Virus record (IMG/VR): IMGVR_UViG_3300024262_005408
Location: 1 to 64,000 of that record
Source: a virus
Strand: one strand, 5' to 3'
Length of the DNA: 64,000 nucleotides
Position numbers and translations under genes: made by a program
The notes under the pieces: generated by a model
What the model saw: the letters and a program-made list of their open reading frames with translations, nothing else
What the model was told of the DNA's origin: nothing
Database searches by the model: none
Shown here: in pieces, positions 16,784 through 39,469 of the stretch
How the letters are laid out: each line of letters opens with the position of its first letter
Numbering within the stretch: the first letter of the stretch is position 1

Positions 16784-16809
16784 TTATTGCTTACATCTAT
16801 TAATGTCAA
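16781..16809 (-). promoter_or_regulatory. Sigma70-type promoter of the uvsY operon
   Basis: Minus strand: -35 TTGACA at 16809-16804, 17-base spacer, -10 TAATAT at 16786-16781. ATG 16773 follows after seven bases. The -35 lies inside the start of the divergent late gene. Confidence 0.55.
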
Positions 16810-17045
16810 TCTATAAAAACTCATTTTTAAGAGCTTTATTATCAGAAGAAGACGGCGGTAACGTCGCTGGCTCTGGTGGTGTGCTAGGTAGTTGGGATCA
16901 ATCTCATTTTTCTGGTCCGGGTTTATATGCACCTGGTGATGCTAGAAGGCCTTTTGCTCTAGGTGCAATGCAAAAACGAGCCGGTGTATCAAAAAAGAAG
17001 AAAAAGAAGAAGAAAAAGAGTAGAACAAAATCCAAAAAGAAATAA
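16803..17045 (+). CDS. Small late protein with targeting-like N-terminus and poly-Lys tail
   Basis: 80 residues. Residues 1-15 are amphipathic and end in L-S-E, like a T4 capsid-targeting peptide. A Gly-rich linker follows, and the last ~18 residues are almost all Lys/Arg/Ser. The gene is read from a late promoter. A packaged DNA-binding or condensing protein is a reasonable inference; no family is recognised. Confidence 0.75.
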   Translation: MSIYKNSFLRALLSEEDGGNVAGSGGVLGSWDQSHFSGPGLYAPGDARRPFALGAMQKRAGVSKKKKKKKKKSRTKSKKK

Positions 17046-17053
17046 ATTATTTG

Positions 17054-17467
17054 GTGGATAACTACGGTCACTGGACTTATAATCTCGAAGAGAAAGAGAT
17101 ACCGAACACGTTCTACGGTTTTATTTACCAGATAACAAATACAACCAACGACAGAAAATATATCGGAAAGAAACAATCAACTACAATTCTTAAGCGACCA
17201 CCTCTTAAGGGTAGAAAAAATAAAAGACATGTGGTTAAAGAAACAGATTGGAAAATATATACAGGTTCATCGGATAAGTTAAATGAAGATATTCAAAAGT
17301 TAGGTAAAGACGAGTTTAAATTCGAAATATTAAGGTTTTGTCAAAGTAAAAGTGAACTTGCATATTATGAAGCTAAAATGCAATTTGATAATGATGTTTT
17401 ATTAAAAGAAGAGTATTACAACGGAATTATTAACTTAAGATTGGGTAAGATTAAAAAAGTTGATTAA
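17054..17467 (+). CDS. GIY-YIG domain protein
   Basis: 137 residues from GTG 17054; a TTG at 17051 is also in frame. The GIY-YIG motifs are Y-G-F-I-Y-Q-I and R-K-Y-I-G-K-K. The P-P-L-K-G-R-K region, the W-K-I-Y-T-G-S-S turn and the Y-N-G-I-I-N-L-R-L-G end match a single-domain GIY-YIG family I recall from marine T4-like phages. It has no NUMOD modules, unlike the other three GIY-YIG genes here, so it may be a fixed phage gene rather than a homing nuclease. Confidence 0.82.
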   Translation: MDNYGHWTYNLEEKEIPNTFYGFIYQITNTTNDRKYIGKKQSTTILKRPPLKGRKNKRHVVKETDWKIYTGSSDKLNEDIQKLGKDEFKFEILRFCQSKSELAYYEAKMQFDNDVLLKEEYYNGIINLRLGKIKKVD

Positions 17468-17488
17468 CAATAGGTAATAAGTTACAAT
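17460..17488 (+). promoter_or_regulatory. Candidate sigma70-type promoter
   Basis: TTGATT at 17460-17465, 17-base spacer, TACAAT at 17483-17488, then GTG 17495 after six bases. Weak on sequence alone, but the spacing fits the other early promoters. Confidence 0.4.
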
Positions 17489-17494
17489 ATAGGG

Positions 17495-18064
17495 GTGAGG
17501 TTTATACTTCCAGAACATAATATCATCTTAATAGATTTTCAAGATATACATAAAAAATTTGAAAAAGATTTGATTGATGATATACATAGTAACGAGCTAC
17601 TTAGTACATTTAAAGAGAAAAATTTTCAGAATAAAGATATAAAAAAGCTATTTTTTCATCACTCTATAAAAGGAATTGTGGAATATATAAACAAAATAAA
17701 ATCACACAACAAGGTAGTATTATATTTTAACAACACTCAATTTTATGAAAGTGAAATTTTGCATTATTTACCAGAAAAAGATTATTTAAGTTTGTTAACT
17801 AAGTTGTTAGTTAAGTTAAGACATGTATTACCCGTTAAAGTAGTAATATCACTTAGAAGCTTAGCTTACTTTAAAGAATTAATTCAGAAAAATGACGGAA
17901 GAGCAAAAGGTACAGTATTAAAAATATATTCTACCATATCAAAATTTAAAATAGAATCGTTCACTTTTGAAAAAGTTAAGAAATTCGCGAACAAATATCA
18001 ATTAACATTTCTCTCTAATGATTATTTTGATAATATAAAAACAAAACAAATGATATTTAAATAA
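17495..18064 (+). CDS. Hypothetical protein
   Basis: 189 residues starting at GTG. It begins with an alternating strand I-I-L-I-D-F-Q-D and is otherwise Lys-rich with mixed helices and strands, including K-V-V-L-Y-F-N-N-T-Q and K-V-V-I-S-L-R-S-L. This looks like an alpha/beta Rossmann-like fold, but I see no P-loop or catalytic signature. It has an early-type promoter and lies before the late gene block. Confidence 0.65.
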   Translation: MRFILPEHNIILIDFQDIHKKFEKDLIDDIHSNELLSTFKEKNFQNKDIKKLFFHHSIKGIVEYINKIKSHNKVVLYFNNTQFYESEILHYLPEKDYLSLLTKLLVKLRHVLPVKVVISLRSLAYFKELIQKNDGRAKGTVLKIYSTISKFKIESFTFEKVKKFANKYQLTFLSNDYFDNIKTKQMIFK

Positions 18065-18067
18065 ATA
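18060..18067 (+). promoter_or_regulatory. T4-type late promoter AATAAATA
   Basis: Six bases before ATG 18074. It overlaps the stop codon of the preceding gene. Confidence 0.6.
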
Positions 18068-18073
18068 TATAAA

Positions 18074-18505
18074 ATGAAGTTTGATCAAGCTATAAATGAA
18101 GGGTATGGTAGATACGTTAGTGATCAAGAATCGAAAATGATACCAGTCAGTGAAGACGTTTTAAAAAGAGCAGCGGAAGTTGCTTATAATGCCTTAGGCA
18201 CAACCACATACGGAGAAAACCCAGATCTAATGAAATTATATCAACACACGTATTTAGATCTAAAACAAGCACTTAAATCTGGTGGGGTAGAATATTCTGA
18301 GGATGAAGATTTTGAAGATCTAGAAGGGGCTACAGATGAAACACAACAAGAAGGGGAAGATTTTGATGGTGTAAATGCATCAGCCTTATCTAAGGCTTTG
18401 TCCTTAGGTAAGCAATTAAAATCTCCTGAGGTTGCTCAAGCCACACAAGAGCTTCATGGTAAGGTAGCACAAAAAATAAAGGATGTAACAAGTAAATTGT
18501 CATGA
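18074..18505 (+). CDS. Putative internal-head protein
   Basis: 143 residues. It begins M-K-F-D-Q-A-I-N-E-G, so cleavage after I-N-E before Gly would fit the T4 gp21 rule. The middle is strongly acidic and the C-terminal third is helical. It is the first gene of a late run through 20402 in which genes overlap by a few bases. No family is recognised. Confidence 0.7.
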   Translation: MKFDQAINEGYGRYVSDQESKMIPVSEDVLKRAAEVAYNALGTTTYGENPDLMKLYQHTYLDLKQALKSGGVEYSEDEDFEDLEGATDETQQEGEDFDGVNASALSKALSLGKQLKSPEVAQATQELHGKVAQKIKDVTSKLS

Positions 18506-18870
18506 AAATAAAAAGTAAATTTTTTAAATTAATAAAGAATAAGCACAATGTATTGCAAGAACAGGTGCCGCCGGCACCACTTGCACCTGGTATTGACCCA
18601 GCTGCTGTTCCACCTGGTGGTGAGATGGTAGCTACTCAAGAAACAGAAACAATAACAGAACCTGAACCTGAGATTAAACAGCTGACATCCGAAGGTGAAG
18701 TGGAACTTATACGTCTTATTTTAAAAGCACTGATTGTTAACCCTACTGAAGGTACTATACCACCGGAATTGCTTGACGATGAAATTAACGAAAATAACGG
18801 CAGAGCGATGTTATCTAAGATAAGAAATTATTTGAACACTTACACTGACGACCCTGATATTAATTACTAA
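18502..18870 (+). CDS. Putative internal-head protein, Pro-rich
   Basis: 122 residues. A basic amphipathic first 20 residues ends in L-Q-E, followed by a Pro/Ala/Gly linker, an acidic stretch and a helical C-terminus with N-Y-L-N-T-Y-T-D-D. It overlaps the upstream gene by four bases and its stop overlaps the next start by one. Function unknown. Confidence 0.7.
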   Translation: MKIKSKFFKLIKNKHNVLQEQVPPAPLAPGIDPAAVPPGGEMVATQETETITEPEPEIKQLTSEGEVELIRLILKALIVNPTEGTIPPELLDDEINENNGRAMLSKIRNYLNTYTDDPDINY

Positions 18871-20402
18871 TGAAAAAGTATAGATCACTTGAAGACGTGT
18901 ATGCCAATATAGATCAAACGGTAACACTATTACCTAGACAGACAATTAATGAATGGGCGATATTGTTTGCCGATGAAGAAGCCGGACCAATAAAAATAGG
19001 CGATGTGGATGATAAATTTTTGAATAGATTAAAAAAAGATATTGGTAACCATCAAGGCGGGGTTAAAGACTTGTTACAAAATTTAGTGAACTCAGGTCAT
19101 TGGTCGTCTGGGATGAAAGACCAAGATTATCATGATAAAATTTTATTACCCGCAATAGAATCATTTATAGACATACCTGATGATATAGATGCAAATCAGT
19201 TAAAACACCTAATAAAAAATAAAAAGAATTTAACCGGGTTTGGGGATCAAATTAAAAATGCTGTTGTTAATAATAGTTCATTTAATTATCTAGATAGTTT
19301 GGAAGAAGTTGCATCCCCGGTATTTAAAGGCAACACAAGACAGCTATTAGATAGATTATATGCATTAGATTTTCAACAAAGCAATGTTAATGTAGGTAAA
19401 GGTGAATTAGTAGCAACACTATTTTCTAATGCCGTAAAAGGTAAAAAAGGAGATTTATATATAGATGGTATTGGTGAAGTAGAAGTAAAAGGGACGCAAG
19501 GCCGCCCCGGTAAATCGGGAGGGACAGTAGTGTCTGCAAGAAAAATCCTTCCAAAAATGTTAAAGGATAAAGGTCATGACATTTATACCGGAAGAGAAAT
19601 ACAGAAATTTTTATTAAATCTAACTAAGAGTATAAATGAGTTAAAGGGGTATATTTCTTCGTTGATAGGTAATCCTAAATTTACTGAACGTACTCAAGAA
19701 ATTTTACATCATATATCTGATTATGTTGAACAATTTACAGACCCACAAAATATAAAAAATATTGATAATAACGACTTTTATACAAGTAAATTAGATCTTG
19801 AAAAAATGATTCATAGCTCTGGGTTACCTTCAACTCAGGTAAAAACAGCGCTTAGCAAATTAAATCAAGGTTCTAACTCAAAACCTGGCCTAGAAAAAAC
19901 ATTTAAAGAATTTCAACATTCTAAAGACAGAAAAACCATTACGCCCGGTAATGAAGAAGATTATCATTGGAGTGATGTAGTTAAACAATACTTCATGGGT
20001 GACTGGGGACTAACAAAAGATGACATAGTTGATGGGTTTGTTGTATTAGCAAACGAAGATATTAATTCACAAGAAGAAAGCCAGTTAAGAGAAGCATTAA
20101 ACGTAATAGTAGATGACGATTTACTGTCAAGATTAGCAAACGAAGATAAAGGAGCTTTAGATACTGTTGTAGCTACAATACATTCTGCTTTATATCACAA
20201 CAGAGAAGAATTTCCTATTATGCTTTTGGTTAACTCTACTAGTAAAGAAGCTTTACCGTTAGCATTCCCGGGTGAAAATTTAAAAGAGAAGGTTTTAAAC
20301 CACTATAATACTATTGATCGCTTAATTAGTAACGGTCTTCTAAAAATAGGGTTATCTGTCGACCCTAGAAGCAAAGGAGTACAGTTTACATTTACGGGGT
20401 AA
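18870..20402 (+). CDS. Large late protein with PD-(D/E)XK nuclease-like motif
   Basis: 510 residues. Residues 176-210 contain G-K-G-E (Glu179), G-D-L (Asp195) and G-E-V-E-V-K-G (Glu205, Lys207). That is the E...D...E-x-K arrangement of PD-(D/E)XK nucleases and Type II restriction enzymes. The Gly/Arg-rich G-T-Q-G-R-P-G follows at once. The N-terminal 28 residues end in T-I-N-E, a possible prohead-protease site. Residues 220-510 are helical with no recognised domain. It is co-transcribed with putative internal proteins, so a packaged nuclease is a testable idea. Confidence 0.72.
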   Translation: MKKYRSLEDVYANIDQTVTLLPRQTINEWAILFADEEAGPIKIGDVDDKFLNRLKKDIGNHQGGVKDLLQNLVNSGHWSSGMKDQDYHDKILLPAIESFIDIPDDIDANQLKHLIKNKKNLTGFGDQIKNAVVNNSSFNYLDSLEEVASPVFKGNTRQLLDRLYALDFQQSNVNVGKGELVATLFSNAVKGKKGDLYIDGIGEVEVKGTQGRPGKSGGTVVSARKILPKMLKDKGHDIYTGREIQKFLLNLTKSINELKGYISSLIGNPKFTERTQEILHHISDYVEQFTDPQNIKNIDNNDFYTSKLDLEKMIHSSGLPSTQVKTALSKLNQGSNSKPGLEKTFKEFQHSKDRKTITPGNEEDYHWSDVVKQYFMGDWGLTKDDIVDGFVVLANEDINSQEESQLREALNVIVDDDLLSRLANEDKGALDTVVATIHSALYHNREEFPIMLLVNSTSKEALPLAFPGENLKEKVLNHYNTIDRLISNGLLKIGLSVDPRSKGVQFTFTG

Positions 20403-20403
20403 A

Positions 20404-20411
20404 AATAAATA
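20404..20411 (+). promoter_or_regulatory. Late-type box AATAAATA (short spacing)
   Basis: Only two bases before ATG 20414, so transcription from it would begin just inside the gene. It may be a decoy, or translation may depend on read-through from upstream. Confidence 0.3.
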
Positions 20412-20413
20412 CA

Positions 20414-21754
20414 ATGACATCTGAACACGAGTTAATATACGAAACATATAAAATATCAAGACTCTTAAATGAAGGTGGTGCGGCCGGTCATATGGCTCAC
20501 CCTTTTGATCTTCCTGACGTAAAAACAGGTAATGATTTAGAAAATAAATTTAAAGACACGGTAAAAATATTAGATAAAGAAGGTGGGTCTGTAAAAATAG
20601 ATGGTACTAATGTTAGTATTAAACTTATTCAAAACGAACACGGTCAAAGACAATTTGCTTTAGACAGAGGTTCTCAATCACAATTAGATGTAAATGGGGT
20701 TACAATAGATAAATTGCAAGATAGATTTGTTACTAAAGACGGTTCTGTGCATGGAATGATAAACGCTGGCAATACAATATTAACCATAATGAATCAATCT
20801 TTACCTGTTATTAAACCTGAACTCGAAGAATTAGGATTATGGGACGATTCCACAAAATTTATAAATGCAGAATTTGTTCAAGGCCATACAAATGTAATTG
20901 ATTATGGAGATCAAGATTTCTTAGCATTACATGGTATAAATCAGTTTTTAGAAAAACATAATAGAGAAGGGCAATTAGTTCGCCCTGGTATACCAAGACA
21001 GGAGTTACAAAACCCCATTACAGGTGCAACTACTTTAGAGAAAGGGTCATCGAAAGCAATACCTTTTGATCATAAAGCATTAGACGAATTAGCAAAAAAA
21101 GTAGAACCTGTAGCAAAAGAATTTAAATTTGATGTCATAACTCAAGCTGAAGTAGAAAAATCAGGAGAGCCTAATTTTAATAAAGTTTTATCAACCCCGT
21201 TTACAGTAAATTTTGCACTGGATGAATCAGAAACAAAACCTTTAGGTACCTGGCTAAGTCATTCAGTAAATCCATATTCTTATATGTTGCAAGGTCTTGA
21301 TGGAAAAAAAATCGGCGCAGTAAGCAAACAAAATTATTTAAATGTTTTAAATGGTGAAGTTCCTTTAAACGAACTATATCAAGAAACAGATATCGAACAA
21401 GCAGTGGATGGTGCCATTATTTACCACGCCACTGTAGTAATGGGTAATGAAATAAAGAGTAACTATACTAGTAAATTGGGTGGAACAGATTCCCATGAAG
21501 GTATTGTAGTGGCGGGATCACCTCCATATAAAATAACGGGTAGTTTTATTATAGATGGAATGAATAGCAGATTTAGATCAGCTGACGAAGACGATCAATC
21601 AGCACCTAGTATAAATTATGGTGGTGGTAAAATGGAATACCCTAATGCTCAAAGTGTTAATTATGCAGCAAGTTCTAAAGACCCCGGTGGTACCCCATAT
21701 TCTAAGTATCCTGGCCCCGGTAAAGCAGTCGGTGGTAATGCCAATAGATCATAA
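20414..21754 (+). CDS. Polynucleotide ligase-like nucleotidyltransferase
   Basis: 446 residues. The motifs of the covalent nucleotidyltransferase superfamily occur in order: motif I K-I-D-G with Lys61 as nucleotidyl acceptor, an Ia-like D-R-G at 84-86, motif III I-N-A-E-F-V with Glu153, motif IV H-E-G-I-V-V at 361-366, and motif V Y-K-I-T-G with Lys373. The N-terminus ends in R-L-L-N-E-G-G, a good match to a prohead-protease site after Glu20. An ATP-dependent RNA or DNA end-joining activity is likely; the substrate is unknown. The C-terminal ~50 residues are Gly/Ser/Pro-rich. Confidence 0.78.
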   Translation: MTSEHELIYETYKISRLLNEGGAAGHMAHPFDLPDVKTGNDLENKFKDTVKILDKEGGSVKIDGTNVSIKLIQNEHGQRQFALDRGSQSQLDVNGVTIDKLQDRFVTKDGSVHGMINAGNTILTIMNQSLPVIKPELEELGLWDDSTKFINAEFVQGHTNVIDYGDQDFLALHGINQFLEKHNREGQLVRPGIPRQELQNPITGATTLEKGSSKAIPFDHKALDELAKKVEPVAKEFKFDVITQAEVEKSGEPNFNKVLSTPFTVNFALDESETKPLGTWLSHSVNPYSYMLQGLDGKKIGAVSKQNYLNVLNGEVPLNELYQETDIEQAVDGAIIYHATVVMGNEIKSNYTSKLGGTDSHEGIVVAGSPPYKITGSFIIDGMNSRFRSADEDDQSAPSINYGGGKMEYPNAQSVNYAASSKDPGGTPYSKYPGPGKAVGGNANRS

Positions 21755-21765
21755 TAACTAATTAT

Positions 21766-23052: not shown

Positions 23053-23055
23053 TAC

Positions 23056-23676
23056 ATGAAGCTGTTTAGCCAATATTTTTACAACGAACAGGTAATACCA
23101 GATAAAGAAGTTAATTCTCGTACTGTAGCTTTGGTTCCTGGTAGCTTTAAACCCCCACATAAAGGTCACTTTGAAATGTTTAAATACTATGCTAATAAAG
23201 CAGACAGAGTAATTGTTGTTATTAGTGACCCTCAAAATCCAAAAAGTATAAGAACAACACCAGAAGGTAAATATATACCTGCTAAAACAGCAAAAGAGAT
23301 TTTTGAACTTTATGCTAAAAATGAAAATGTTCGAAATATTACTTTTGTAACTGACCCGTCACCCGTAAAATTCGTTTATGATTATTTTGCAGAAAGAACT
23401 CAACCAGGTGATAAAGTTATTTTAGGTGTCGGTGGGAAAGGTGAAGATGCAGCACGTTATAAAAATGCAGCTAAATATGCCCCTGAGGGTGTAGAATTAG
23501 ATATAGATGTTTTTGCTCCAGTTGGGGGAGATTCACCAATTAGCGCATCTGATATACGTAACAAATTAGATGCTTTAACAATAGAAGACTTATTACCTTA
23601 TATTCCTGACAGACTTAGAGACAATGAAGCTGTCGTAAATGCCGTATATAATGCATTGACAACTCTTCCAGAGTAA
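23056..23676 (+). CDS. Nicotinamide-nucleotide adenylyltransferase-like protein
   Basis: 206 residues. After an 11-residue leader, V-A-L-V-P-G-S-F-K-P-P-H-K-G-H (residues 24-38) gives the GxFxPxHxGH motif of HIGH-type nucleotidylyltransferases. The I-S-A-S-D-I-R motif near 162 is the (I/V)SSTxxR equivalent. NadM/NadD enzymes join NMN or NaMN with ATP to make NAD; CoaD and cytidylyltransferases share the fold. The leader M-K-L-F-S-Q-Y-F-Y-N-E resembles the N-terminal tags on neighbouring late proteins, so this enzyme may be packaged. Confidence 0.82.
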   Translation: MKLFSQYFYNEQVIPDKEVNSRTVALVPGSFKPPHKGHFEMFKYYANKADRVIVVISDPQNPKSIRTTPEGKYIPAKTAKEIFELYAKNENVRNITFVTDPSPVKFVYDYFAERTQPGDKVILGVGGKGEDAARYKNAAKYAPEGVELDIDVFAPVGGDSPISASDIRNKLDALTIEDLLPYIPDRLRDNEAVVNAVYNALTTLPE

Positions 23677-23688
23677 TTAAATTAATTT

Positions 23689-24324
23689 GTGCATGTAAAT
23701 CATAAACGAAAAGCACTGTTCTTCCATGTACCAAAAACCGGCGGGACAGCAATTCATACTGCTTTTAGTGCCCATACAATTACAACTAAAGACAAATGGG
23801 AATTTTATTTAGGTATGCACGGAAATTTTACTGATTTAAAATACGGACCCGGTACTAAAAAAGTATTTGATAAGTTAATAAAATATTGGAAATTCTGTTT
23901 TGTGCGAAATCCTTGGTCTCATGCTGTAAGTTTGTATTTTAATTTGATAGACTTAGATAGGTGGGTAAAAGAAGAACATCCAGAACCTATAGAAAATTAT
24001 AAAAATTTTAAATGGTTTTTAAAAACATATAATGGTGAAACCCCACTATATCGTCCTCAGTCTCATTACACATTTTATGATAAAGAATTTAAAATTGACA
24101 AATGGTACAAATATGAGCAGCTTCAAGAAGCATGGGATGATATATGTGAACGATTCAAATATAAAAAATTTAAACTGCCCGTTGTTAATATAACTAAGCA
24201 AAGAAAAAATATATTTGACATTGCTTATCCCGAAGATTATAGAACGTATTATGATGATGAGTCTATAGAATATGTGGCTAATAAATCAGAAAATGAAATA
24301 CGACGATTTAATTATCGGTTTTAG
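23689..24324 (+). CDS. Sulfotransferase family protein, paralog 1
   Basis: 211 residues starting at GTG. The PAPS 5'-phosphosulfate loop is F-F-H-V-P-K-T-G-G-T-A at 11-21. The 3'-phosphate motif is F-V-R-N-P-W-S-H-A-V-S near 70. Both match carbohydrate sulfotransferases, which move sulfate from PAPS to glycan hydroxyls. A second copy is at 29428-30024. The target is probably one of the phage- or host-made glycans. It overlaps the convergent gene at 24308 by 17 bases. Confidence 0.88.
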   Translation: MHVNHKRKALFFHVPKTGGTAIHTAFSAHTITTKDKWEFYLGMHGNFTDLKYGPGTKKVFDKLIKYWKFCFVRNPWSHAVSLYFNLIDLDRWVKEEHPEPIENYKNFKWFLKTYNGETPLYRPQSHYTFYDKEFKIDKWYKYEQLQEAWDDICERFKYKKFKLPVVNITKQRKNIFDIAYPEDYRTYYDDESIEYVANKSENEIRRFNYRF

Positions 24325-24685
24325 GATAGTCTCTAAAATCCATACCCGTATGTTTATACGCTTTTTTAATATAATCTTTAATTAACTCTTCCATACCTTG
24401 TTTTTGTAACAACTCAGCAAAAACTTCATTTGATAATAAAAATCCCTTTATCTGTCCATATAACCTTTCTGGTGTAATATTAATATGTCTTTGCGAGAAT
24501 TTAGCTTTTTTAATATACTCGTCTACAAATTGCATCATTGCATCTGTTTCATCATCTTCTGCCGGTTTTAATTGTACCATATTAGATTGAGGAAAATCTG
24601 CAAAGTCACCAGCTTGCGGGCCCATATTAAATGCTAAACCACCAGATTCCATTATTTTTTGTATTTTTAAGTCGTCTTGGTCCAT
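24308..24685 (-). CDS. Hypothetical late protein
   Basis: 125 residues from the second of two tandem ATGs (24688, 24685). The second start sits six bases after a TATAAATA box. The N-terminus M-D-Q-D-D-L-K-I-Q-K-I-M-E-S offers an I-M-E cleavage-like site. The rest is helical with an acidic middle. No family is recognised. It is the only gene on this strand in the local plus-strand block. Confidence 0.7.
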   Translation of the reverse strand: MDQDDLKIQKIMESGGLAFNMGPQAGDFADFPQSNMVQLKPAEDDETDAMMQFVDEYIKKAKFSQRHINITPERLYGQIKGFLLSNEVFAELLQKQGMEELIKDYIKKAYKHTGMDFRDYPKTDN

Positions 24686-24691
24686 CATTAG

Positions 24692-24699
24692 TATTTATA
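24692..24699 (-). promoter_or_regulatory. T4-type late promoter TATAAATA
   Basis: An exact octamer on the minus strand, six bases before ATG 24685. Confidence 0.65.
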
Positions 24700-24747: not shown

Positions 24748-25209
24748 GTGAAAATCAATTTTAATAATAGAATAAGCAATCTCTTAAGAGAATACAATCG
24801 CGGTGTGTTAAACATGCAAACACAAAATCAACATGGTGATACAGATGACCCCGGAGAAGATACATATACCGGCTCGGTAGATGATACCGAATCAGCTGAA
24901 CCATCTGAAGAAGGTGAAGAAGGACCTGAAAGCGAAAAACAAAGAGATGTAGAGAGTTTAAAAGCCCTTCGATCTAACCCTGATAGACGTCATGCAATCG
25001 ATAATTACGGTTCAGTTAAAAAATACCAAAAGATGCTTTCCAGAAAAATACATAAACTGGAGCATAAAGATCGTAACGAAGAGGATGCAGAAAGTTGGGT
25101 TGATCCGGCTCATAAGGGTGATTGCACACCTATGTCAAAAGCGTCTTGCACCCCTCGTAGAAAAGCATTCGCAAGAAGAGCAAAAGCTGGGGATTTTAAG
25201 AAAAAGTAA
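24748..25209 (+). CDS. Putative internal protein with acidic middle and basic Cys-containing tail
   Basis: 153 residues starting at GTG. The N-terminus ends in N-L-L-R-E (residues 11-15). Residues 30-68 are very rich in Asp/Glu. The C-terminus H-K-G-D-C-T-P-M-S-K-A-S-C-T-P-R-R-K-A-F is basic with two C-T-P motifs, a pattern I recall from marine phage hypothetical proteins. The charge-segregated design fits a head-interior or DNA-associated role. Function unknown. Confidence 0.72.
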   Translation: MKINFNNRISNLLREYNRGVLNMQTQNQHGDTDDPGEDTYTGSVDDTESAEPSEEGEEGPESEKQRDVESLKALRSNPDRRHAIDNYGSVKKYQKMLSRKIHKLEHKDRNEEDAESWVDPAHKGDCTPMSKASCTPRRKAFARRAKAGDFKKK

Positions 25210-26435: not shown

Positions 26436-26612
26436 ATGGACACCCAAAAGCAATTAATACTAGATACAGTAGCAAATTATATTAAGAATGTAGATTTATA
26501 TATGGAGAAAGATAATAAATCTGCATCTACTAGAGCACGTAAAGCGTTGGCTGATCTCGTTAAGATATGTAGAGAAGAAAGAAAAACTATATTAGAAGCA
26601 AGAAAAAAATAA
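26436..26612 (+). CDS. Small basic helical protein
   Basis: 58 residues from ATG 26436 to the TAA at 26610-26612. Two predicted helices; the second half is basic (S-T-R-A-R-K-A-L-A-D-L-V-K-I-C-R-E-E-R-K), resembling the small histone-H1/Hc1-like proteins that I recall from bacteria and phages. Its stop overlaps the next start by one base. DNA binding is a guess from composition. Confidence 0.65.
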   Translation: MDTQKQLILDTVANYIKNVDLYMEKDNKSASTRARKALADLVKICREERKTILEARKK

Positions 26613-27061
26613 TGATAAGCAATTTTTCAAAAATTTATAGAAGATTTATAGTTAATGAAATACACGTTGATAGTGATGATGTTGTTGGTCTAGTGGAAAA
26701 AATAGATATTAAAGGTATTGGTGAGGTAGACGCAAAAATTGATTCAGGTAACGGGGCGTACAACGTAATAGACGGTGAAGTTATTTCAAAAAGAGGGGAT
26801 AATGTAATTATAAAAACAATCGGAGGTAAAAAACTAAAAAAGAAAGTTGTGGATGAAGTTGTAATTCATATCGGTTCCGGGAATAAAGAACTTCGCCCGG
26901 TGGTTACCTTTGATATTAAATTGGGTGATGAAGAATATAATGATATACCTTTTTCAATAGCTGATCGTAGTGAAAATGAATACGCTGTGTTGATAGGTAA
27001 AATATTTTTATCAAAAATAGACAAATTGATAGATGTTGATAAGCAATATGAACAAGATTAA
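26612..27061 (+). CDS. Retropepsin-like / RimK-associated zinc-protease-fold protein
   Basis: 149 residues. V-D-A-K-I-D-S-G at 39-46 is the D-(T/S)-G active-site loop. The end I-A-D-R-S-E-N-E-Y-A-V-L-I-G-K-I-F-L matches the PF05618 family (the domain next to RimK; retropepsin fold). The N-terminal M-I-S-N-F-S-K-I-Y-R-R-F-I-V-N-E looks like a head-targeting tag, so the enzyme may act in the capsid or after injection. The family's true activity is not settled. Confidence 0.75.
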   Translation: MISNFSKIYRRFIVNEIHVDSDDVVGLVEKIDIKGIGEVDAKIDSGNGAYNVIDGEVISKRGDNVIIKTIGGKKLKKKVVDEVVIHIGSGNKELRPVVTFDIKLGDEEYNDIPFSIADRSENEYAVLIGKIFLSKIDKLIDVDKQYEQD

Positions 27062-31118: not shown

Positions 31119-31568
31119 ATGATGAAAAGCTTTGACATTATATTAGCCGAATGTTTAAAGAACAAGGGCTTGAAATATATACGGTTCAAAGTAGATCCTA
31201 CTTTAAATTCTGGGTTTGAAAAATCTGAAGCTTATGAAGGGTTTGTACTTCAAGAGTTAAGTCATGAAAATTGTGGACCAGCTGGTCCCGGGTTACCACC
31301 CCTTTTAAAAGTTTTACTACCCGGTGGCCCGTTACCTGGTATATTTAACGTTAAAAAACCTGTATTAACCCCATCTAGACCTAATTCAATTAAAATGTTC
31401 AAAAAATACATTGCTAAGAAGTTAAAAGATAAGATTAGTAAGAAAGAATTTGAACAGATAAGAAATACTAACGATATTGACGACATTGAGCATTATTTAA
31501 AACAAGGTGGGGTAGATGATTCGGAACTTCTAAAAATTTATAAAACATTGTTAAGACATGCCGCTTAA
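31119..31568 (+). CDS. Putative internal-head protein
   Basis: 149 residues. It begins M-M-K-S-F-D-I-I-L-A-E, an N-terminal tag-like helix ending in L-A-E. The middle is Pro/Gly-rich (G-P-A-G-P-G-L-P-P) and the C-terminal part is Lys-rich and helical. It overlaps the next gene by 11 bases. Function unknown. Confidence 0.7.
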   Translation: MMKSFDIILAECLKNKGLKYIRFKVDPTLNSGFEKSEAYEGFVLQELSHENCGPAGPGLPPLLKVLLPGGPLPGIFNVKKPVLTPSRPNSIKMFKKYIAKKLKDKISKKEFEQIRNTNDIDDIEHYLKQGGVDDSELLKIYKTLLRHAA

Positions 31569-32094: not shown

Positions 32095-32095
32095 G

Positions 32096-32123: not shown

Positions 32124-32129
32124 AGAGGA

Positions 32130-33873: not shown

Positions 33874-33890
33874 ACTATTAATATTTAATC

Positions 33891-33918
33891 TTGATAATAC
33901 ATTTGTTCATAATAAAAT
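33891..33918 (+). promoter_or_regulatory. Sigma70-type promoter of queE
   Basis: -35 TTGATA at 33891-33896, 16-base spacer, -10 TAAAAT at 33913-33918, ATG 33926 after seven bases. Confidence 0.6.
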
Positions 33919-33925
33919 CATTTAT

Positions 33926-34669
33926 ATGAATAACAGCGATGAAACTATTTATCTTAGCGATGATAAAATATTTTACACAGTTGAAGGAGAAGGAGAGTTT
34001 GTAGGTTACCCTTCTGTTTTTATGAGACTATCAATGTGTAATCTAACATGTAAAGGATTTGCATCTGCTGCTTCTCCTCACGGTTGTGATAGTTTTATAT
34101 CTTGGCGCGTTAAAAATAAATTTACAATTAAGGAAGTTTTTGATCTTCTTGAAAGTGGTGGTTATAAAGATCATTTATACAATGGTGCTATATTAAAAAT
34201 TACTGGCGGAGAACCTCTAGTACAACAAAAGGCATTATTAAAGTTTTTAGATTATATGGAAGTTGAATGGGGATGGGTACCTCGTATAGATTTTGAAACT
34301 AATGCAACAATCTTGCCTGATCCAGAGTGGTTGAGAGTCGGCGCCACGTTTACTACATCTCCTAAGATGAGTAATAATGGTGATCCTGAAGATCGTCGAT
34401 ATAAACCAAAAGTATTAGATTGGCACTCTACTAATGGATCTGGATTTAAATTTGTAATTGATAAAGAATCAGATCTAGATGAAGTATTTGCAAAGTATAT
34501 TGATCCGTTTGACATACCAATTGGTAGAGTGTGGTTAATGCCTTGTTGTGGTAGCAGAGAAGAGCATATAGAAAAAGCCCCTATGGTTGCTGAACTAGCT
34601 AAGAAGCATAGATTTAACTTTAGTTCACGACTACATTTATTAGTGTGGGATAAAGCCTTGCTCGTTTAA
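33926..34669 (+). CDS. queE: 7-carboxy-7-deazaguanine synthase (QueE)
   Basis: 247 residues from ATG 33926. A radical SAM enzyme that converts carboxy-tetrahydropterin to 7-carboxy-7-deazaguanine. T-V-E-G-E-G-E-F-V-G and F-M-R-L-S-M-C-N-L-T-C precede a third Cys in H-G-C-D-S, so the cluster motif is C-x3-C with the third Cys 12 residues on instead of three. G-G-E-P-L-V-Q-Q follows. The cluster spacing matches some atypical and phage QueE proteins that I recall. Confidence 0.92.
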   Translation: MNNSDETIYLSDDKIFYTVEGEGEFVGYPSVFMRLSMCNLTCKGFASAASPHGCDSFISWRVKNKFTIKEVFDLLESGGYKDHLYNGAILKITGGEPLVQQKALLKFLDYMEVEWGWVPRIDFETNATILPDPEWLRVGATFTTSPKMSNNGDPEDRRYKPKVLDWHSTNGSGFKFVIDKESDLDEVFAKYIDPFDIPIGRVWLMPCCGSREEHIEKAPMVAELAKKHRFNFSSRLHLLVWDKALLV

Positions 34670-34686
34670 TACCATATATGACATAG

Positions 34687-34726
34687 GAGAGTTAGGTTAG
34701 GGGTTCTGAGCTCCAGCCTAACTCTC
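34687..34726 (+). terminator. Inverted repeat between queE and the convergent GIY-YIG gene
   Basis: Ten-base perfect arms at 34687-34696 and 34717-34726 around a 20-base loop that contains GAGCTC. It overlaps the 3' end of the GIY-YIG gene. Only a weak T-run follows on the plus strand (34732-34735), so termination is possible but not certain. Confidence 0.45.
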
Positions 34727-35306
34727 TCCATGTTTTACCTCTCCACCCAAACCTCCAATACCTCTTTGATTCAATCTTCTTATCTACATACTTTATACAT
34801 CTGTTCATTATAGTTACATTTGAACACTCATTTGTCTCTGCTGCTTTAAATGCATTTGTGAACTCTCCTTTTGGTGTGTAATACCTGTACTTTTCATGAC
34901 ACTTACTATTAATAGCTGATCTTTTCTTTTTATATTCATCTGAGCAATTTGCATAAAACCTTTTAAGAGAAATAATCTTCTTTTTATTTTGTTCTTCTGT
35001 AATACTTCTTCCGAGCATTGTGGGTCCACCATCTCCTCTCTCAGGTACCAAATTAGCCCAACCCTCACTCTTTACTATATCCTGCTCCTCACTTAATAAT
35101 ATAGCCTGCTTAATAAACTCTTCCTTATCTGTAAACTCTCCAACAATCTCTGTAGTAATATCTCCCCCATGTACATTAAGATGTCTTTTCCAGTAACTAC
35201 CTGATCCCTTGTATGTAAAAGGGTATTTAGGATTATCTGTAGATGTTTTACAGAGATATTTTAAACCTGTCTTATTATGTGTTTTAATCATTAAGTAATG
35301 TGTCAT
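34692..35306 (-). CDS. GIY-YIG homing endonuclease
   Basis: 204 residues. The start H-Y-L-M-I-K-T-H-N-K-T-G-L-K-Y-L-C-K-T with Y-K-G-S-G-S-Y-W matches the degenerate GIY-YIG family found free-standing in T4-like phages, in which the first motif is Y-L-x-I-K. The C-terminal half has N-A-F-K-A-A-E, a NUMOD1-like helical DNA-binding repeat. Its minus orientation inside a plus-strand region and its own exact late promoter suggest insertion as a mobile gene after queE. Confidence 0.82.
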   Translation of the reverse strand: MTHYLMIKTHNKTGLKYLCKTSTDNPKYPFTYKGSGSYWKRHLNVHGGDITTEIVGEFTDKEEFIKQAILLSEEQDIVKSEGWANLVPERGDGGPTMLGRSITEEQNKKKIISLKRFYANCSDEYKKKRSAINSKCHEKYRYYTPKGEFTNAFKAAETNECSNVTIMNRCIKYVDKKIESKRYWRFGWRGKTWRELGWSSEPLT

Positions 35307-35311
35307 ATAAT

Positions 35312-35319
35312 TATTTATA
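35312..35319 (-). promoter_or_regulatory. T4-type late promoter TATAAATA
   Basis: An exact octamer on the minus strand, five bases before ATG 35306. Confidence 0.65.
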
Positions 35320-35377
35320 CTTTTAATGCCTGGTCCTCATGAAAAATACCCCTATTACCTCTCAAAAAAATACTGAC

Positions 35378-35405
35378 TTGAAGATCTAGGGCCATAACTT
35401 ATGTA
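35378..35405 (+). promoter_or_regulatory. Weak sigma70-type promoter candidate
   Basis: TTGAAG, 16-base spacer, TATGTA; ATG 35411 after five bases. The -10 is poor. Confidence 0.3.
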
Positions 35406-35410
35406 TTAAT

Positions 35411-36244
35411 ATGAACGATTGGGTGGTCCCGAATTTTTATAAAGCACCAGAAAATTCTCTATTTGATAAAGAGTTCGATTATTTTGTAAGCTTGGGTCAT
35501 AGGTGTTGTGTTGGTCAAGCACTAAACTACATGCGTAAATCTTCTTTTCCGTTTGATTGGCAAGTAACAAAAATGTCTGCCCTTGCAAATATTTTTAAAA
35601 ATGAATTTAAAAACTTTTATCCTGATAGCGGTGTAGATTTTGCTCATGTGATCTACTATCAGGATGAAAATAATCAAGAAACTGATAGAATTAATGAAGA
35701 AGCAACATATGAAATATATAATCGCCGTAGTAAGAGATTAGTTAAATTGTTGAAAGAAAATGAACGAAAATTATTGTTTGTTCGTCATAAGTATATTTGG
35801 TACTGGTCTAAATGGCCAGAACATGGTGCACAATATGATGCAAACCCGGTAGATTACGATATTCAACAGTTAGTTGAAGTTTCAAACATTTTAAAAAATC
35901 AATATGGAAATGATAAATTTGAAATATTGTACGTTTATCAAGATATGAGAGATTTTAAAGAATTCGAGTGGGATGAAAACGGAGAAATAGATCAAAGAAG
36001 TTTCACATTACCGGCGGGACAGGAACAGATGGAGTTAGCAAAACAATTTACATATGTTGAGCAGTTAGGGTTTAAAGATAAAAATATTACACCTGTTGTA
36101 GTAAAACCTAATAATGTAAGAGTTGAAGGTAATGCAATGTGTAGCGCTATTAATTCATTTATAAAATTATCTGATATTCACGATTTTAATTTACCCTACG
36201 GTTATGAAAAAATTAAATTATCCAGAAATATAGATGTCGAATAA
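35411..36244 (+). CDS. DUF1796 putative papain-like cysteine peptidase family protein
   Basis: 277 residues. F-V-S-L-G-H-R-C-C-V-G-Q-A-L-N then S-S-F-P-F-D-W-Q-V matches DUF1796, a family often found beside glycosyltransferases, with a candidate catalytic Cys in the R-C-C pair. A later R-H-K-Y-I-W-Y-W could carry the His. It overlaps the next gene (GT34-like) by 11 bases, so the two are read together. Whether it is a peptidase or a sugar-related enzyme is not known. Confidence 0.75.
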   Translation: MNDWVVPNFYKAPENSLFDKEFDYFVSLGHRCCVGQALNYMRKSSFPFDWQVTKMSALANIFKNEFKNFYPDSGVDFAHVIYYQDENNQETDRINEEATYEIYNRRSKRLVKLLKENERKLLFVRHKYIWYWSKWPEHGAQYDANPVDYDIQQLVEVSNILKNQYGNDKFEILYVYQDMRDFKEFEWDENGEIDQRSFTLPAGQEQMELAKQFTYVEQLGFKDKNITPVVVKPNNVRVEGNAMCSAINSFIKLSDIHDFNLPYGYEKIKLSRNIDVE

Positions 36245-36890
36245 AAAAGCAGTACTACAATCTATATGTAACAATTATGAAGACTTAATTAATGTAACTA
36301 GACCACATAACGCAGAATATGCAGATAAAATAGGGTTTGATTACATTCTTCATAAAAATTTGGAAGTTTTAGGCCGTTCGATTTTTAAACATGATCGAGC
36401 CCCGGCTTGGAACAAAATGTATTCTATAAAATATCTTTTTGCAAAAGGATACGAACAAATATTTTTATTAGATGGTGATGCTGTAGTAGTAGACAAAGAA
36501 AAAAATGTTTTAGATTTAAAAAAAGGAAAAGAAGATAAAAGTATCCATATTTGTTGTGACGGCCTCGAAAAAACGTTAATTCATGTTAATACAGGGGCTA
36601 TTTTTATTGAAAAAAATAAGTATACAATACAGTTTATTGAAAACGTAATAAACACCCCGAATTTGCTATGGCACAATACCAGAAATTGGGAACAAAATGC
36701 AATACATGAAGAATTTGATAAAGTTGAATTTTTGTACACAAAAATAGTACAATTATATGATTCAGATTATTTTAACCATAACGGTGATTGGGTTTTCCAT
36801 CCATGCTGGGACTGCACTTCAGCTGAAAAGGTATCGTTAATAAAAAAGAAATTAAATCACCCCAAACAAGATGTATTAAAAATGGGTTGA
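36234..36890 (+). CDS. GT34-like (GMA12/MNN10) glycosyltransferase
   Basis: 218 residues. The A-W-N-K-M-Y-S-I-K segment followed by I-F-L-L-D-G-D-A-V-V-V gives the D-x-D metal/nucleotide-sugar site. V-N-T-G-A-I-F-I-E and N-W-E-Q-N-A-I follow in the order seen in GMA12/MNN10-type galactosyl- and mannosyltransferases. A relative lies at 43594. Acceptor unknown. Confidence 0.8.
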   Translation: MSNKKAVLQSICNNYEDLINVTRPHNAEYADKIGFDYILHKNLEVLGRSIFKHDRAPAWNKMYSIKYLFAKGYEQIFLLDGDAVVVDKEKNVLDLKKGKEDKSIHICCDGLEKTLIHVNTGAIFIEKNKYTIQFIENVINTPNLLWHNTRNWEQNAIHEEFDKVEFLYTKIVQLYDSDYFNHNGDWVFHPCWDCTSAEKVSLIKKKLNHPKQDVLKMG

Positions 36891-36897
36891 ATAAATA
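36890..36897 (+). promoter_or_regulatory. T4-type late promoter AATAAATA
   Basis: Six bases before the second of two tandem ATGs (36901, 36904), favouring 36904 as the start. Confidence 0.55.
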
Positions 36898-36903
36898 TAG
36901 ATG

Positions 36904-37173
36904 ATGACCCGGTTTCAGCTAAGATGTAATGAATTGTTAGAACATACCGATTTAGATCCTAACGAGCTAACTATTGGAGATGTAATAAGAAATGTAAATC
37001 CTGAATGTAAACATTTTAAGAGCAAAGGTAAAGTTATTGCAATAAAACCTATGCACGGTGACACTGGCGAATCGGGTAACTTAGTAAGATACATAGTTTT
37101 AAATAGGGGTAAGACATTTAACCCTGGTGATGAACTTGAAAAAACCGAAATTCAATTAGATAAAATTTTGTGA
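36904..37173 (+). CDS. Small hypothetical late protein
   Basis: 89 residues. The N-terminus M-T-R-F-Q-L-R-C-N-E-L-L-E may be a short targeting tag. The body looks like a small beta-barrel (K-G-K-V-I-A-I-K-P...V-L-N-R-G-K-T-F-N-P-G-D). Function unknown. Confidence 0.65.
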   Translation: MTRFQLRCNELLEHTDLDPNELTIGDVIRNVNPECKHFKSKGKVIAIKPMHGDTGESGNLVRYIVLNRGKTFNPGDELEKTEIQLDKIL

Positions 37174-37219
37174 ATTACGAATACCGAATACATAAGTAAT
37201 AGTCTTTTCATTAGTAATT

Positions 37220-37227
37220 AATAAATA
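37220..37227 (+). promoter_or_regulatory. T4-type late promoter AATAAATA
   Basis: Six bases before ATG 37234. Confidence 0.6.
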
Positions 37228-37233
37228 TATAAA

Positions 37234-38898
37234 ATGAACAGAAGTAAAGACATTTCAGCCATTTTCGAAAATTACCAAGGAACGTTGGATATGTCCCCTC
37301 AAACATCGTTTAAACAGGATAAAGAATTTTTTCAATATGTTATAGAAAGTAATCCTCACTTAGCCCCGCTAAGAAACGTAAAATTAAAATATATTTTTGA
37401 ATTATATAAACTCAAATTAAAAGAAAATCTTGATAGAGATATGCCAGGTTTAATAACAGAAAATACACAATTAAACCTTACATTAAGAGAGAGTTTTGAT
37501 ATTATTCAAGATTTTACAAAAAATGTTTCTGATAAAAGTGCTTATGAGGGTGTAAAAGAAATTTTTGAAAGTATTTGTGCAGATTATCTACTTCAAAAGG
37601 GTGATGGGTTATTACTAGAAGTTGGTTATAGAGACACAGCATCCGGCATGGGTAGCCGGCCAACTAGTGCTACCTCTAATAAAAGGGTACCAAGCATGCG
37701 GCCCGACTTAGTAAAAAGAAGAGCTCGGTACGCGCAAAAGAGAGGTGAAGTAGCACAACCACTAGCACAAGCAACAACTCAGCCCGGTGCGACAGAAACT
37801 ATTACAAAAGACGTAGAGGCAGTAGCAAGACCTGCTGCACCTGCAGGACCAACAGCTCAAGCAATACAGCAACAACAGCAACTGCGTCAGCAAGGTGCGG
37901 AACTTAAAAACCTACAAGCTCAGCAAGGTCAACCAAATGCTGCTCAAATACAGGGCCAACAGAAAATGCGTGAAATGCAGGCACAAAATGATGCGATGCA
38001 AAAGCAAATTCAGGACATGGAAGCTAAAGAAGCTGAAATGTCTGCTGCTCAAAAAGCTCAGTCTGATGCACAGCAAGAAGCAATGCAAAAGCAAATGGCT
38101 GCTATGGCAGCGGTGATGCAGCAAATGGCAGACCAACAGCAGAAGCAAACTCAACCTCCGGTAATAGACATAGAAACAGAAACAGAAACAGAAACAGAAG
38201 GTGAAGCAGGAGCACCCGGTGCAGCAGGAGCACCCGGTGCAGCAGGAGCACCCACACCTGCTAAAAAGCCAGGTATGTTAGCTAGAGCAGGTGGTTGGTT
38301 AAAGGATAAGGCTGCACAAGTCGCACCGACAGTTGGTATGGCGGCAGGTGGTTTACTTGGTAGTGCTTTAGGTCCAGCTGGGACGATCGGTGGCGCTGCT
38401 TTAGGTAAAGCATTAGGTGCCGGGACCCAATCTGCGATAAACGCACCAAAAGGTGGCCGAATTAAAGCGGCGATGCAAACACCAGTAGGTAAACATTTAG
38501 CACAAGGTGCCGCCGTAGGTGGTCTAGGTGCATTAATGGGTGCCGGTGGTGGTGAAGAAGCAGCTGCTACACCAGATGTTACACCAGATGTTGCACCACT
38601 AGGTGGTGGTACAACTCCTGCTAGTATGGTTGGTGATACAGCTGATGTAAACAGCCCAGAATATCAAGCATCTATGACTCAAGTAGCTGATACTCAACCA
38701 GCGTTAATGAATGCCGACGGCAGCATGGGCCCGGGTACGGAATCTGGTATGGAAGTAGATGAAACAGAAACAGCAACAGAAGAAGCACCATATGGTATAA
38801 ACCCAAATACAGGAGAGCCATTACCAGCACCAAGAGGGCAGGTTAAAGGTGGTAAAGGATTAATGAATCTTGCTAAAGGATTCGCAAAATACGGATAA
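37234..38898 (+). CDS. Gln/Ala-rich late protein with glycine-zipper membrane segment
   Basis: 554 residues. Residues 1-12 end in A-I-F-E (tag-like). An N-terminal helical domain of ~130 residues is followed by a long Gln-rich coiled coil (about 200-305). Next come a short E-T repeat, three copies of G-A-P-G-A-A-like collagenous repeats, and a Gly/Ala hydrophobic region (about 365-435) with glycine-zipper spacing that could insert in membranes. No enzymatic motif. It could be an injected channel- or tube-like protein, or a head scaffold; both are inference. Confidence 0.75.
   Translation: MNRSKDISAIFENYQGTLDMSPQTSFKQDKEFFQYVIESNPHLAPLRNVKLKYIFELYKLKLKENLDRDMPGLITENTQLNLTLRESFDIIQDFTKNVSDKSAYEGVKEIFESICADYLLQKGDGLLLEVGYRDTASGMGSRPTSATSNKRVPSMRPDLVKRRARYAQKRGEVAQPLAQATTQPGATETITKDVEAVARPAAPAGPTAQAIQQQQQLRQQGAELKNLQAQQGQPNAAQIQGQQKMREMQAQNDAMQKQIQDMEAKEAEMSAAQKAQSDAQQEAMQKQMAAMAAVMQQMADQQQKQTQPPVIDIETETETETEGEAGAPGAAGAPGAAGAPTPAKKPGMLARAGGWLKDKAAQVAPTVGMAAGGLLGSALGPAGTIGGAALGKALGAGTQSAINAPKGGRIKAAMQTPVGKHLAQGAAVGGLGALMGAGGGEEAAATPDVTPDVAPLGGGTTPASMVGDTADVNSPEYQASMTQVADTQPALMNADGSMGPGTESGMEVDETETATEEAPYGINPNTGEPLPAPRGQVKGGKGLMNLAKGFAKYG
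38164..38252 (+). repeat. Short tandem repeats in the Gln-rich gene
   Basis: A six-base GAAACA-type repeat (about four copies) is followed by an 18-base GCAGGAGCACCCGGTGCA-type repeat of about three units. They encode E-T and A-G-A-P-G-A repeats. Copy number is likely variable between strains. Confidence 0.75.
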
Positions 38899-38899
38899 G

Positions 38900-39469
38900 A
38901 TGATTAATTTTAAAGAATTTTATATAGAAGAAGCTTTAGGAGAGTATTTCCCTACTGTAAAAAAAGCAGGTCGTATGTTAAAATCATTACCAAGAAATAT
39001 TGCAAAAGGTGTGCGCAGTATGTCACCAGAGTATCAAAAACAGTTTACCCCTGGAACTGCCGGTTTTGATAAAGGCGCTGATATTTTGTCGGGTAAGACG
39101 ATGGGTGAAATACAAGCGAAAATTTTAGCATGGCGTACTAAAAATATCACATCTAAAGACGGTACCCCCGCAGCAAGAAGAGCAGAAGAAGAATTAGCAA
39201 GTATAGCAGCTCCACCTGGTGGGACAGGAGCTGCCAAAGCCATTGAGTTTAGGCCTGACGGTAAATTTACTGATTCGGGGTATACACCACCAGGTCACTC
39301 GAGCCCTAAAGCATTTGATCATATAGGCCACTATGCCAATACAGTGCTTGATTCTATGCTTATATATGCGCAAAAAGGTTACCCTTTAAAAGATATAGTA
39401 AGATTTCTGAGATTTGACAAAGTAGCTTTAGACCTTTTAAAAAAGCACGGTTACTTATACACTGGATAA
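38900..39469 (+). CDS. Putative internal-head protein
   Basis: 189 residues from ATG 38900, one base after the previous stop. M-I-N-F-K-E-F-Y-I-E-E-A closely resembles the T4 internal-protein targeting peptide, with cleavage expected after I-E-E before Ala. The rest is basic, with a Pro/Gly-rich middle and a helical C-terminus. Unknown function. Confidence 0.72.
   Translation: MINFKEFYIEEALGEYFPTVKKAGRMLKSLPRNIAKGVRSMSPEYQKQFTPGTAGFDKGADILSGKTMGEIQAKILAWRTKNITSKDGTPAARRAEEELASIAAPPGGTGAAKAIEFRPDGKFTDSGYTPPGHSSPKAFDHIGHYANTVLDSMLIYAQKGYPLKDIVRFLRFDKVALDLLKKHGYLYTG

Follow-up and report, generated by a model that had tools for sequence, protein, structure and literature searches.

The internal proteins (Ips) of phage T4 carry an N-terminal capsid-targeting sequence (CTS), for which we used the following criterion: a propeptide of 10-19 residues with aromatic residues at positions 4 and 7, Leu or Ile at P3 and Glu at P1. 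The products of ipII and ipIII start with MKTYQEFIAE/A (the slash denotes a known or predicted cut throughout) and that of ipI with MKTFKEF, and mutational data on IPIII link residues 4 and 7 to targeting and residues 8 and 10 to processing (PMC9026906). Type IV restriction enzymes are blocked by all three of Ip1-Ip3, and T-even relatives are reported to have at least 10 Ips bearing a packaging signal (PMC12373910). Here, we analyzed a window of 64,000 nucleotides (positions 1 to 64,000 of record IMGVR_UViG_3300024262_005408, a 65.9-kb IMG/VR fragment of a T4-like phage), in which genes between 16803 and 39469 encode proteins with comparable N-terminal tags. These proteins very probably form a late, syntenic (uvsY to queD and beyond), head-packaged set that is processed by a gp21-type protease, that may be delivered with the DNA, and that includes enzymes and a mimic of the N-terminal arm of gp23. 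An initial annotation of the window had called this the best candidate there for an undescribed system. Since tagged Ips were already reported in T-even phages, the kind of system is known; new are how large and conserved the set is, the enzymes that it contains, and its occurrence in T4-like phages of aquatic origin.

N-terminal tags and the predicted cut site

Genes are named below by their start coordinate in the window, and labels such as G018 or L246 denote contigs and loci of relatives. For the family analysis, seven longer records were added to ~80 related loci, and the open reading frames (ORFs) of all of these were clustered into families. All of the 11 N-terminal motifs listed in the initial annotation, as well as two weaker ones (23056 and 26612), were found in the sequence, and three details were corrected: the gene listed at 24308 reads from the minus strand, with its start at 24688; position 36904 corresponds to the second Met of ORF 36901; and 38900 marks an ATG inside ORF 38870. 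The tagged genes, with their predicted tags, are as follows.

16803..17045, plus strand: 80-aa gp23-arm mimic with a poly-Lys tail; tag MSIYKNSFLRALLSE/ (16803-16847), P1 E15
18074..18505, plus strand: 143-aa protein; tag MKFDQAINE/G (18074-18100), P1 E9; motif at the same place in 9/9 family members
18502..18870, plus strand: 122-aa protein; tag ...NVLQE/Q (18502-18561), P1 E20; motif in 35/42 members
18870..20402, plus strand: 510-aa probable PD-(D/E)XK nuclease; long tag KYRSLEDVY...LLPRQTINE/ (18870-18953), P1 E28
20414..21754, plus strand: 446-aa probable RNA-ligase-like nucleotidyltransferase (KxDGxN); tag ...SRLLNE/GG (20414-20473), P1 E20, also IYE10
23056..23676, plus strand: 206-aa NMNAT/cytidylyltransferase-like enzyme (PF01467); weak-form tag MKLFSQYFYNE/ (23056-23088), YNE11
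24308..24688, minus strand: 126-aa protein; tag MMDQDDLKIQKIME/S (24647-24688), P1 E14
24748..25209, plus strand: 153-aa protein, GTG start; tag VKINFNNRISNLLRE/Y (24748-24792), P1 E15
26612..27061, plus strand: 149-aa retropepsin-like ('ATP-dependent zinc protease') domain protein (PF05618); weak-form tag MISNFSKIYRRFIVNE/ (26612-26659), VNE16
31119..31568, plus strand: 149-aa protein; T4-register tag MMKSFDIILAE/C (31119-31151), P1 E11; motif in 13/15 members
36901..37173, plus strand: 90-aa protein; tag (M)MTRFQLRCNELLE/H (36904-36942), P1 E13; G007 orthologue MTRFLKRYNELLE/H; thin support
37234..38898, plus strand: 554-aa Ala/Gln-rich protein; tag MNRSKDISAIFE/N (37234-37269), P1 E12; G007 orthologue MDKEIRNIFE/S; thin support
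38900..39469, plus strand: 189-aa protein; tag MINFKEFYIEE/A (38900-38932), P1 E10/E11; orthologues ISFKEFYLRE/S (G007) and MNSFKEYYNLKE/G (G010)

An example of a tag from the window is MTSEHELIYETYKISRLLNE. The common form of the tags is M-x-(x)-F-x-x-[FY]-[LI]-x-E, and a second, longer type follows YxSLxxVY...LPRQxxxxE. Exact agreement with the T4 criterion was observed for orthologues of 20414, 23056 and 26612, and for 31119 itself. Tags in the T4 register include MITFKQFLLE/GG, MTTFKEFYQLISE/GG and MKSFKQFIINE/GG in the 20414 family; the 23056 family has MKTFKQFFLGE/Q (G001/G007) and MTFKRFLAE/Q, the G025 orthologue of 26612 has MKTFKQYIQE/K, and a further G018 gene is tagged MITFKQFITE/A. 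Within the window, 31119 (MMKSFDIILAE) and 38900 (MINFKEFYIEE) come nearest to this register.

The bare motif L/I-x-E, on which the initial annotation had relied, proved unspecific as an identifier. Although it ends within residues 8-30 in 16/32 genes of the region versus 13/45 outside (Fisher p=0.05, binomial p=0.0008; 21-23% at internal positions, the background rate), it also matches 24/62 T4 genes and is not enriched in the virion proteins of cyanophage S-CREM2 (17/50 vs 44/162 others). Members of the set are instead identified by register and conservation. Across the ten tagged families, 53-100% of the members have [LIM]xE within residues 8-32, compared with 1-52% at internal positions. 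Median motif retention is 0.85 in these families and 0.29 in 27 others (Mann-Whitney U test, p=3e-5, a guide rather than a blind test, since it was the finding that determined which families counted as tagged), and the motif likewise exceeds the rate at internal positions of the same family (p=5e-6). These figures are unchanged when the window and its nearest clade are left out. Two false positives, uvsY (0.79) and gp41 (0.85), score high because the motif sits inside a conserved domain. The initial annotation had named an equal motif frequency in early proteins as evidence against the tags; at the family level such equality was not found, the replication and metabolic families scoring low (gp46 0.09, gp47 0.04, gp32 0, queE 0.17). 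It is the conservation in relatives that makes the motif observation convincing. Among individual families, the motif is present in 34/39 members of the 16803 family (a count that takes in gp23 itself and a few unrelated rows), in 32/36 divergent homologues of 24308 (a family set by position and strand) and in 10/19 members of the 24748 family, whose G001/G007 orthologues start with MKVTFNDKI[RK]SLLKE/Y.

The 20414 family bears on the predicted cut. The residue preceding its conserved GG[AV]AGHM is Glu in 63/78 loci and the initiator Met in 12/78 (the loci are not all independent), and this Glu-or-Met dichotomy marks the putative cut site: a start codon exactly at the predicted P1' is expected if GGAAGHM must be a free N-terminus. 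The tagless MGGAAGHM forms (L209, L214, L215, L223, L225, L226, L228, L231, L232, L233, L236 and L237) often lie on larger contigs, in which this enzyme family seems to be used unpackaged. In L248, the ligase-like domain bears a tag of the 18870 type (KSLKDLY...IPRQAI...FLTE), an exchange of tags that occurred in nature. Fusion proteins in L246, L252, L255 and L257, in which other domains (NMNAT-like in L246 and L255) are joined to the ligase-like one, retain LYE, LLNE or LLTE/GG at the domain junction (LxE/GG); this suggests that the fused forms are packaged polyproteins separated by the prohead protease. Tag conservation and cut-site register are, like the promoters described below, read directly from sequence.

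Late promoters, predicted cargo enzymes and the gp23-arm mimic

The initial annotation had described these proteins as late, and promoter analysis agrees with it. The T4-type late promoter NATAAATA occurs within 45 nt upstream of 7/13 tagged genes (chance ~1%) and, in four of the tagged families, precedes 43-89% of the members; it is nearly absent before early families, being found in 0-4% for uvsY, gp41, gp46, gp47 and gp55. The elements in the tagged region are as follows.

18060..18067, plus strand: late-promoter element AATAAATA, 14 nt upstream of 18074
16776, 20404, 24713, 36890 and 37220, plus strand, and 24699, minus strand: further late-promoter elements, by sequence match

Of these, TATAAATA lies 11 nt upstream of the minus-strand gene at 24688, and late promoters lie 11 nt upstream of 36901 and 14 nt upstream of 37234. 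Late promoters of the window are also found at 54196, 58332, 60868 and other positions. In the window together with G001, G007, G008, G011, G012, G018, G025 and G027, NATAAATA stands 13-14 nt before the ATG in 107/197 cases; in the T4 stretches that were checked, the late promoter lies 21-85 nt before it. T4 geometry would put the predicted transcript start at or adjoining the AUG, so that late mRNAs in the clade of the window may be leaderless, by analogy with T4. Early genes have TTGA..TATAAT-like promoters.

The initial annotation took several tagged members to be enzymes, and two of them have profile matches above cut-off. The 23056 protein matches PF01467 (29.6 bits, cut-off 21), and residue 2 of a solved phosphopantetheine adenylyltransferase (3nd5) aligns with its residue 22, so its first 21 residues are an extension. 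The 26612 protein matches PF05618 (35 bits, cut-off 27) and PDB entry 9g58 (E=0.001). The 20414 protein is probably RNA-ligase-like, judging from invariant K61-x-D63-G64-x-N66, EGxV and KxTG motifs and from a structural model (mean pLDDT 78) whose best but weak fold matches, with low TM-scores, are T4 RNA ligase 2 (E=0.037) and a tRNA ligase; no sequence match was found in the PDB. The 18870 protein is a probable PD-(D/E)XK nuclease, with D195, E205 and K207 invariant in 18 sequences, and its family has a conserved tag pattern on a body that is only ~20% identical; its fold search gave no significant match and no profile confirmed the assignment. PDB profile matches of the proteins labelled A2 and A3 were rejected as spurious.

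The 16803 protein aligns to the gp23 of relatives right after the putative cut (NVAGG..GNQFPSQND.AYAPGD.R.P) and then has a Lys-rich end. The arm-mimic family (GNQFPSQNDxAYAPGDxRxPK plus a Lys-rich tail) comprises window 16803-17045, G018 70071, G025 92636 and G027 67680. The mimic may occupy the site of the gp23 arm on the inner shell, or may bridge shell and DNA. For gp23 of the clade, the predicted cut is either ILLE/NQEK or WC[FM]E/A, and the alignment of the mimic favours the latter.

Prohead protease, virion proteomes and alternative explanations

A search for gp21 had been proposed as a check on the tags, and it succeeded in more distant relatives: S77 protease and gp23 were found in the tagged-module contigs G031 and G033-G036. 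Among 22 portal-sharing relatives, the S77 protease was found in nine and gp23 in ten. The gp21 of relatives itself starts with MALRLLVE/T, comparable to MNEPQLLIE/T of T4 gp21. In the 69-kb contig G011, no S77 or gp23 match was detected. T4 has gp21-gp22-gp23 after its portal gene, an arrangement not seen at 59067-62118 of the window; the order of head genes may differ in this clade.

Cyanophages with published virion proteomes link the tag to the virion. In S-CREM2, whose virion proteome is available with coordinates (PMC10665884), the virion proteins gp6 (SAM hydrolase), gp12 (Cas9), gp13, gp14 (kinase) and gp154 (cytidylyltransferase) all carry [FL]xxF[LM]xE. The tight pattern [FYWL]xx[FYW][LIM]xE in the first 30 residues matches 7/212 S-CREM2 ORFs, and 5/7 of these are virion proteins versus 50/212 overall (p=0.009); at internal windows it occurs at 0.3%. 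All four non-structural, non-lysis virion enzymes (gp6, gp12, gp14 and gp154) are tagged (p=4e-7), and in the Cas9-like nuclease gp12 (L285 4705-7314) RFASFMAE/A lies at residues 18-25, in register behind an N-terminal extension. In S-SCSM1, the sole match among 75 ORFs is an NMNAT annotated as a virion protein (MKSFLQFLKE/A; p=0.19). Neither paper offers a packaging explanation (PMC10665884, PMC9602691), and that on S-CREM2 does not mention a targeting tag (PMC10665884). The same tag is present on cytidyltransferases of P-SSM2, S-SM1, Syn33 and S-SZBM1, and on an ATP-grasp protein of pelagiphage Mosig (MQVQPFKNYLEE/A), the C-terminal part of which matches 26612. The idea of a T4-type CTS cut after (L/I)-x-E is thus supported by orthologues in the exact T4 register, tagless homologues that begin at P1', S77 and gp23 in relatives, and tagged enzymes in cyanophage virions.

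PA5oct was also considered as a virion-proteome control, and the tag found no support there: mass spectrometry detects a PA5oct homologue of the G018 nucleotidyltransferase, in which no tag can be recognised. In this phage (L177, 1511-12405), consecutive genes, including that homologue, are annotated as structural proteins from electrospray tandem mass spectrometry (ESI-MS/MS). Agrobacterium jumbo phage Atu_ph07 (L178, 7588-11765) has tandem paralogues that start with MRWHQLxE/A or MRLFQLLE/T, contain YRG motifs and look like ADP-ribosyltransferases, another apparent tagged set.

We propose that precursors would be made late, each with an amphipathic N-terminal tag of 9-28 residues that binds the scaffolding core during prohead assembly, whereby the protein is enclosed. 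A gp21-type S77 prohead protease, encoded in relatives and outside the fragment, would then cut after the Glu, leaving the mature protein in the head; packaging and cutting in the phage of the window are what we infer. Upon infection, the mature proteins would enter the host together with the DNA, as judged by analogy with T4. The predicted cargo consists of RNA-ligase-like, NMNAT-like, probable PD-(D/E)XK nuclease and retropepsin-like proteins, several small proteins, and the basic-tailed gp23-arm mimic. Considering the enzyme classes and T4, action at time zero is most plausible, which could serve tRNA/RNA repair, NAD supply, nuclease action against host defences or action on host metabolism. 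It is possible, and we suggest it tentatively, that a large, mostly uncultivated aquatic T4-like group injects a standard tagged kit (RNA ligase, NAD-synthesis enzyme, nuclease, protease-like protein and gp23-arm mimic), that counter-defence or takeover precedes the reading of phage genes, and that the same portable tag explains the virion enzymes of cyanophages.

Several observations count against this proposal. Neither gp21 nor gp23 was found in the 65.9-kb record or in its nearest contigs, and gp22 was also unseen in the record, although the searches were aimed at gp21 and gp23. Three tags of the window (18074, minus-strand 24688 and 37234) are divergent and out of the T4 register. The retropepsin (26612) family often lacks the P1 Glu, with several relatives retaining the aromatic part, and in three near-identical loci (L185-L187) GG is preceded by Ser. 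Homologues without the tag are present, too, in phages with the S77 protease and gp23 (L225, L232, L233 and L237), so the ligase-like enzyme does not require packaging. The virion proteomes come from other phages, the cyanophages, and it is for their tagged proteins that virion location is established; the authors of the S-SCSM1 study allow for carry-over in the preparation and leave packaged versus carried over undecided (PMC9602691). The tight pattern behind the S-CREM2 p values, though equal to the published T4 pattern, was finalised after part of the S-CREM2 N-termini had been seen.

The alternative that survives best, although still unlikely, is that the tags are true, cleaved, core-binding propeptides of proteins that serve head assembly or DNA condensation and are not delivered effectors. 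It would suit the Lys-rich tails and gp23-arm mimicry of the 16803 family, and an assembly role has been proposed for T4 IPIII (PMC9026906). However, several cargoes are enzymes with intact motifs, unexpected for scaffolding, tagless homologues of the ligase-like enzyme exist, and the tagged virion proteins of S-CREM2 are mostly enzymes. We consider it quite improbable that the N-termini are uncut or not head-targeting and act as a docking signal for another partner (tail, membrane or DNA-replication complex). Cleavage in this clade is predicted from sequence, and some members keep the aromatic part without the P1 Glu (G018 MKTFKDFTQNRP); yet the register is that of the T4 CTS, Glu is conserved at P1, tagless homologues start exactly at P1' and tagged cyanophage enzymes occur in virions. 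Chance, whereby an abundance of L, I, K and E in amphipathic N-termini would produce L/I-x-E by composition, agrees with the frequency of the bare motif (13/45 outside genes, 24/62 T4 genes, uvsY and gp41 families) but can hardly be credited given the family-level excess over the internal null, the Glu-or-Met dichotomy and the agreement with virion proteomes, and it is refuted for the set as a whole, although single members (36901, 37234 and 24308) could be due to it. An export-signal reading was rejected on composition, there being no long hydrophobic stretch.

Packaging by a conserved, removable T4-type tag bears on a recurrent finding: virion proteomics of marine T4-like phages repeatedly detects metabolic enzymes, a kinase and even Cas9, and their authors left undecided whether these are packaged or carried over. 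The tag would provide a packaging mechanism for such enzymes. It is also a sequence test applicable to any T4-like genome, giving a list of candidate injected proteins, and it offers natural cargo enzymes and portable tags, the second, longer type included, for studying protein loading into T4-like heads.

The source fragment and comparison with known systems

T4-like markers on the fragment are the portal protein, a gp55-type late sigma factor, UvsY and a tail-sheath stabilizer. Two of them were located as follows.

59067..60872, plus strand: portal protein gp20 (phrog_213, E=8e-106)
11660..12145, minus strand: gp55-type late sigma factor (phrog_234, E=4e-28)

Judging from the portal sequence, the phage probably has a T4-type head. 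Among cultured or single-cell sequences, the best matches of its DNA polymerase (~31% identity) come from a marine single-amplified genome (SAG) virus and pelagiphage Mosig. Megablast against 50,697 phage records revealed no relative of the window, and tblastn against cultured phages gave no match for the 20414 or 26612 proteins. Relatives are numerous in IMG/VR, where at least 546 of 599 examined stretches encode a relative of the 20414 protein; no bacterial copies of this family were confirmed. In G018, G025, G027 and G008 the tagged module spans uvsY to queD, and the first three of these have about ten tagged genes in 10 kb; in the window the module is spread out by inserted untagged genes (sulfotransferase-like and others). 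The sulfotransferase-like genes 23689 and 29428, within the tagged region, are untagged and look accessory. Untagged blocks of glycosyltransferase- and sugar-nucleotide-like genes at 14385-16378 and 41707-49681 look like accessory insertions.

The literature searched, coverage of which is incomplete, yielded no report of an enzyme-bearing set this large and conserved in a distant group of aquatic phages, of a tag of the second type, of a mimic of the gp23 arm, or of a connection to the enzymes in cyanophage virions. Among known systems, the ejection proteins of phiKZ and SPN3US are similar in that a protease related to gp21 (gp175/gp245-type) cleaves multiple head proteins after Glu, many of which are packaged and ejected; these are giant phages outside the T4 group, however, and their propeptides and cargo differ. 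T4 Alt is likewise a head-packaged, gp21-processed enzyme, whereas the window has different enzyme classes and no ADP-ribosyltransferase was found in its tagged set. The set resembles T4 IPI, IPII and IPIII in where the tag lies, in its length and residues (aromatic at 4 and 7, Leu or Ile at P3, Glu at P1) and in being expressed late; the head is probably of the T4 type too. Its mature parts were not recognised as IPI-III in the searches made. Moreover, the T4 Ips are three small hypervariable genes, unlike the ~10-13 genes of this conserved module, whose cargo includes conserved enzymes and which has the extra long tag type YxSLxxVY...LPRQxxxxE. The virion enzymes of S-CREM2 and S-SCSM1 (NMNAT/cytidylyltransferase, kinase, SAM hydrolase and Cas9) are tagged as well (MKNFSSFLTE/A and MKSFLQFLKE/A) and belong to overlapping classes (PMC10665884, PMC9602691), but these cyanophages have few tagged genes per genome, in contrast to the set in the window.

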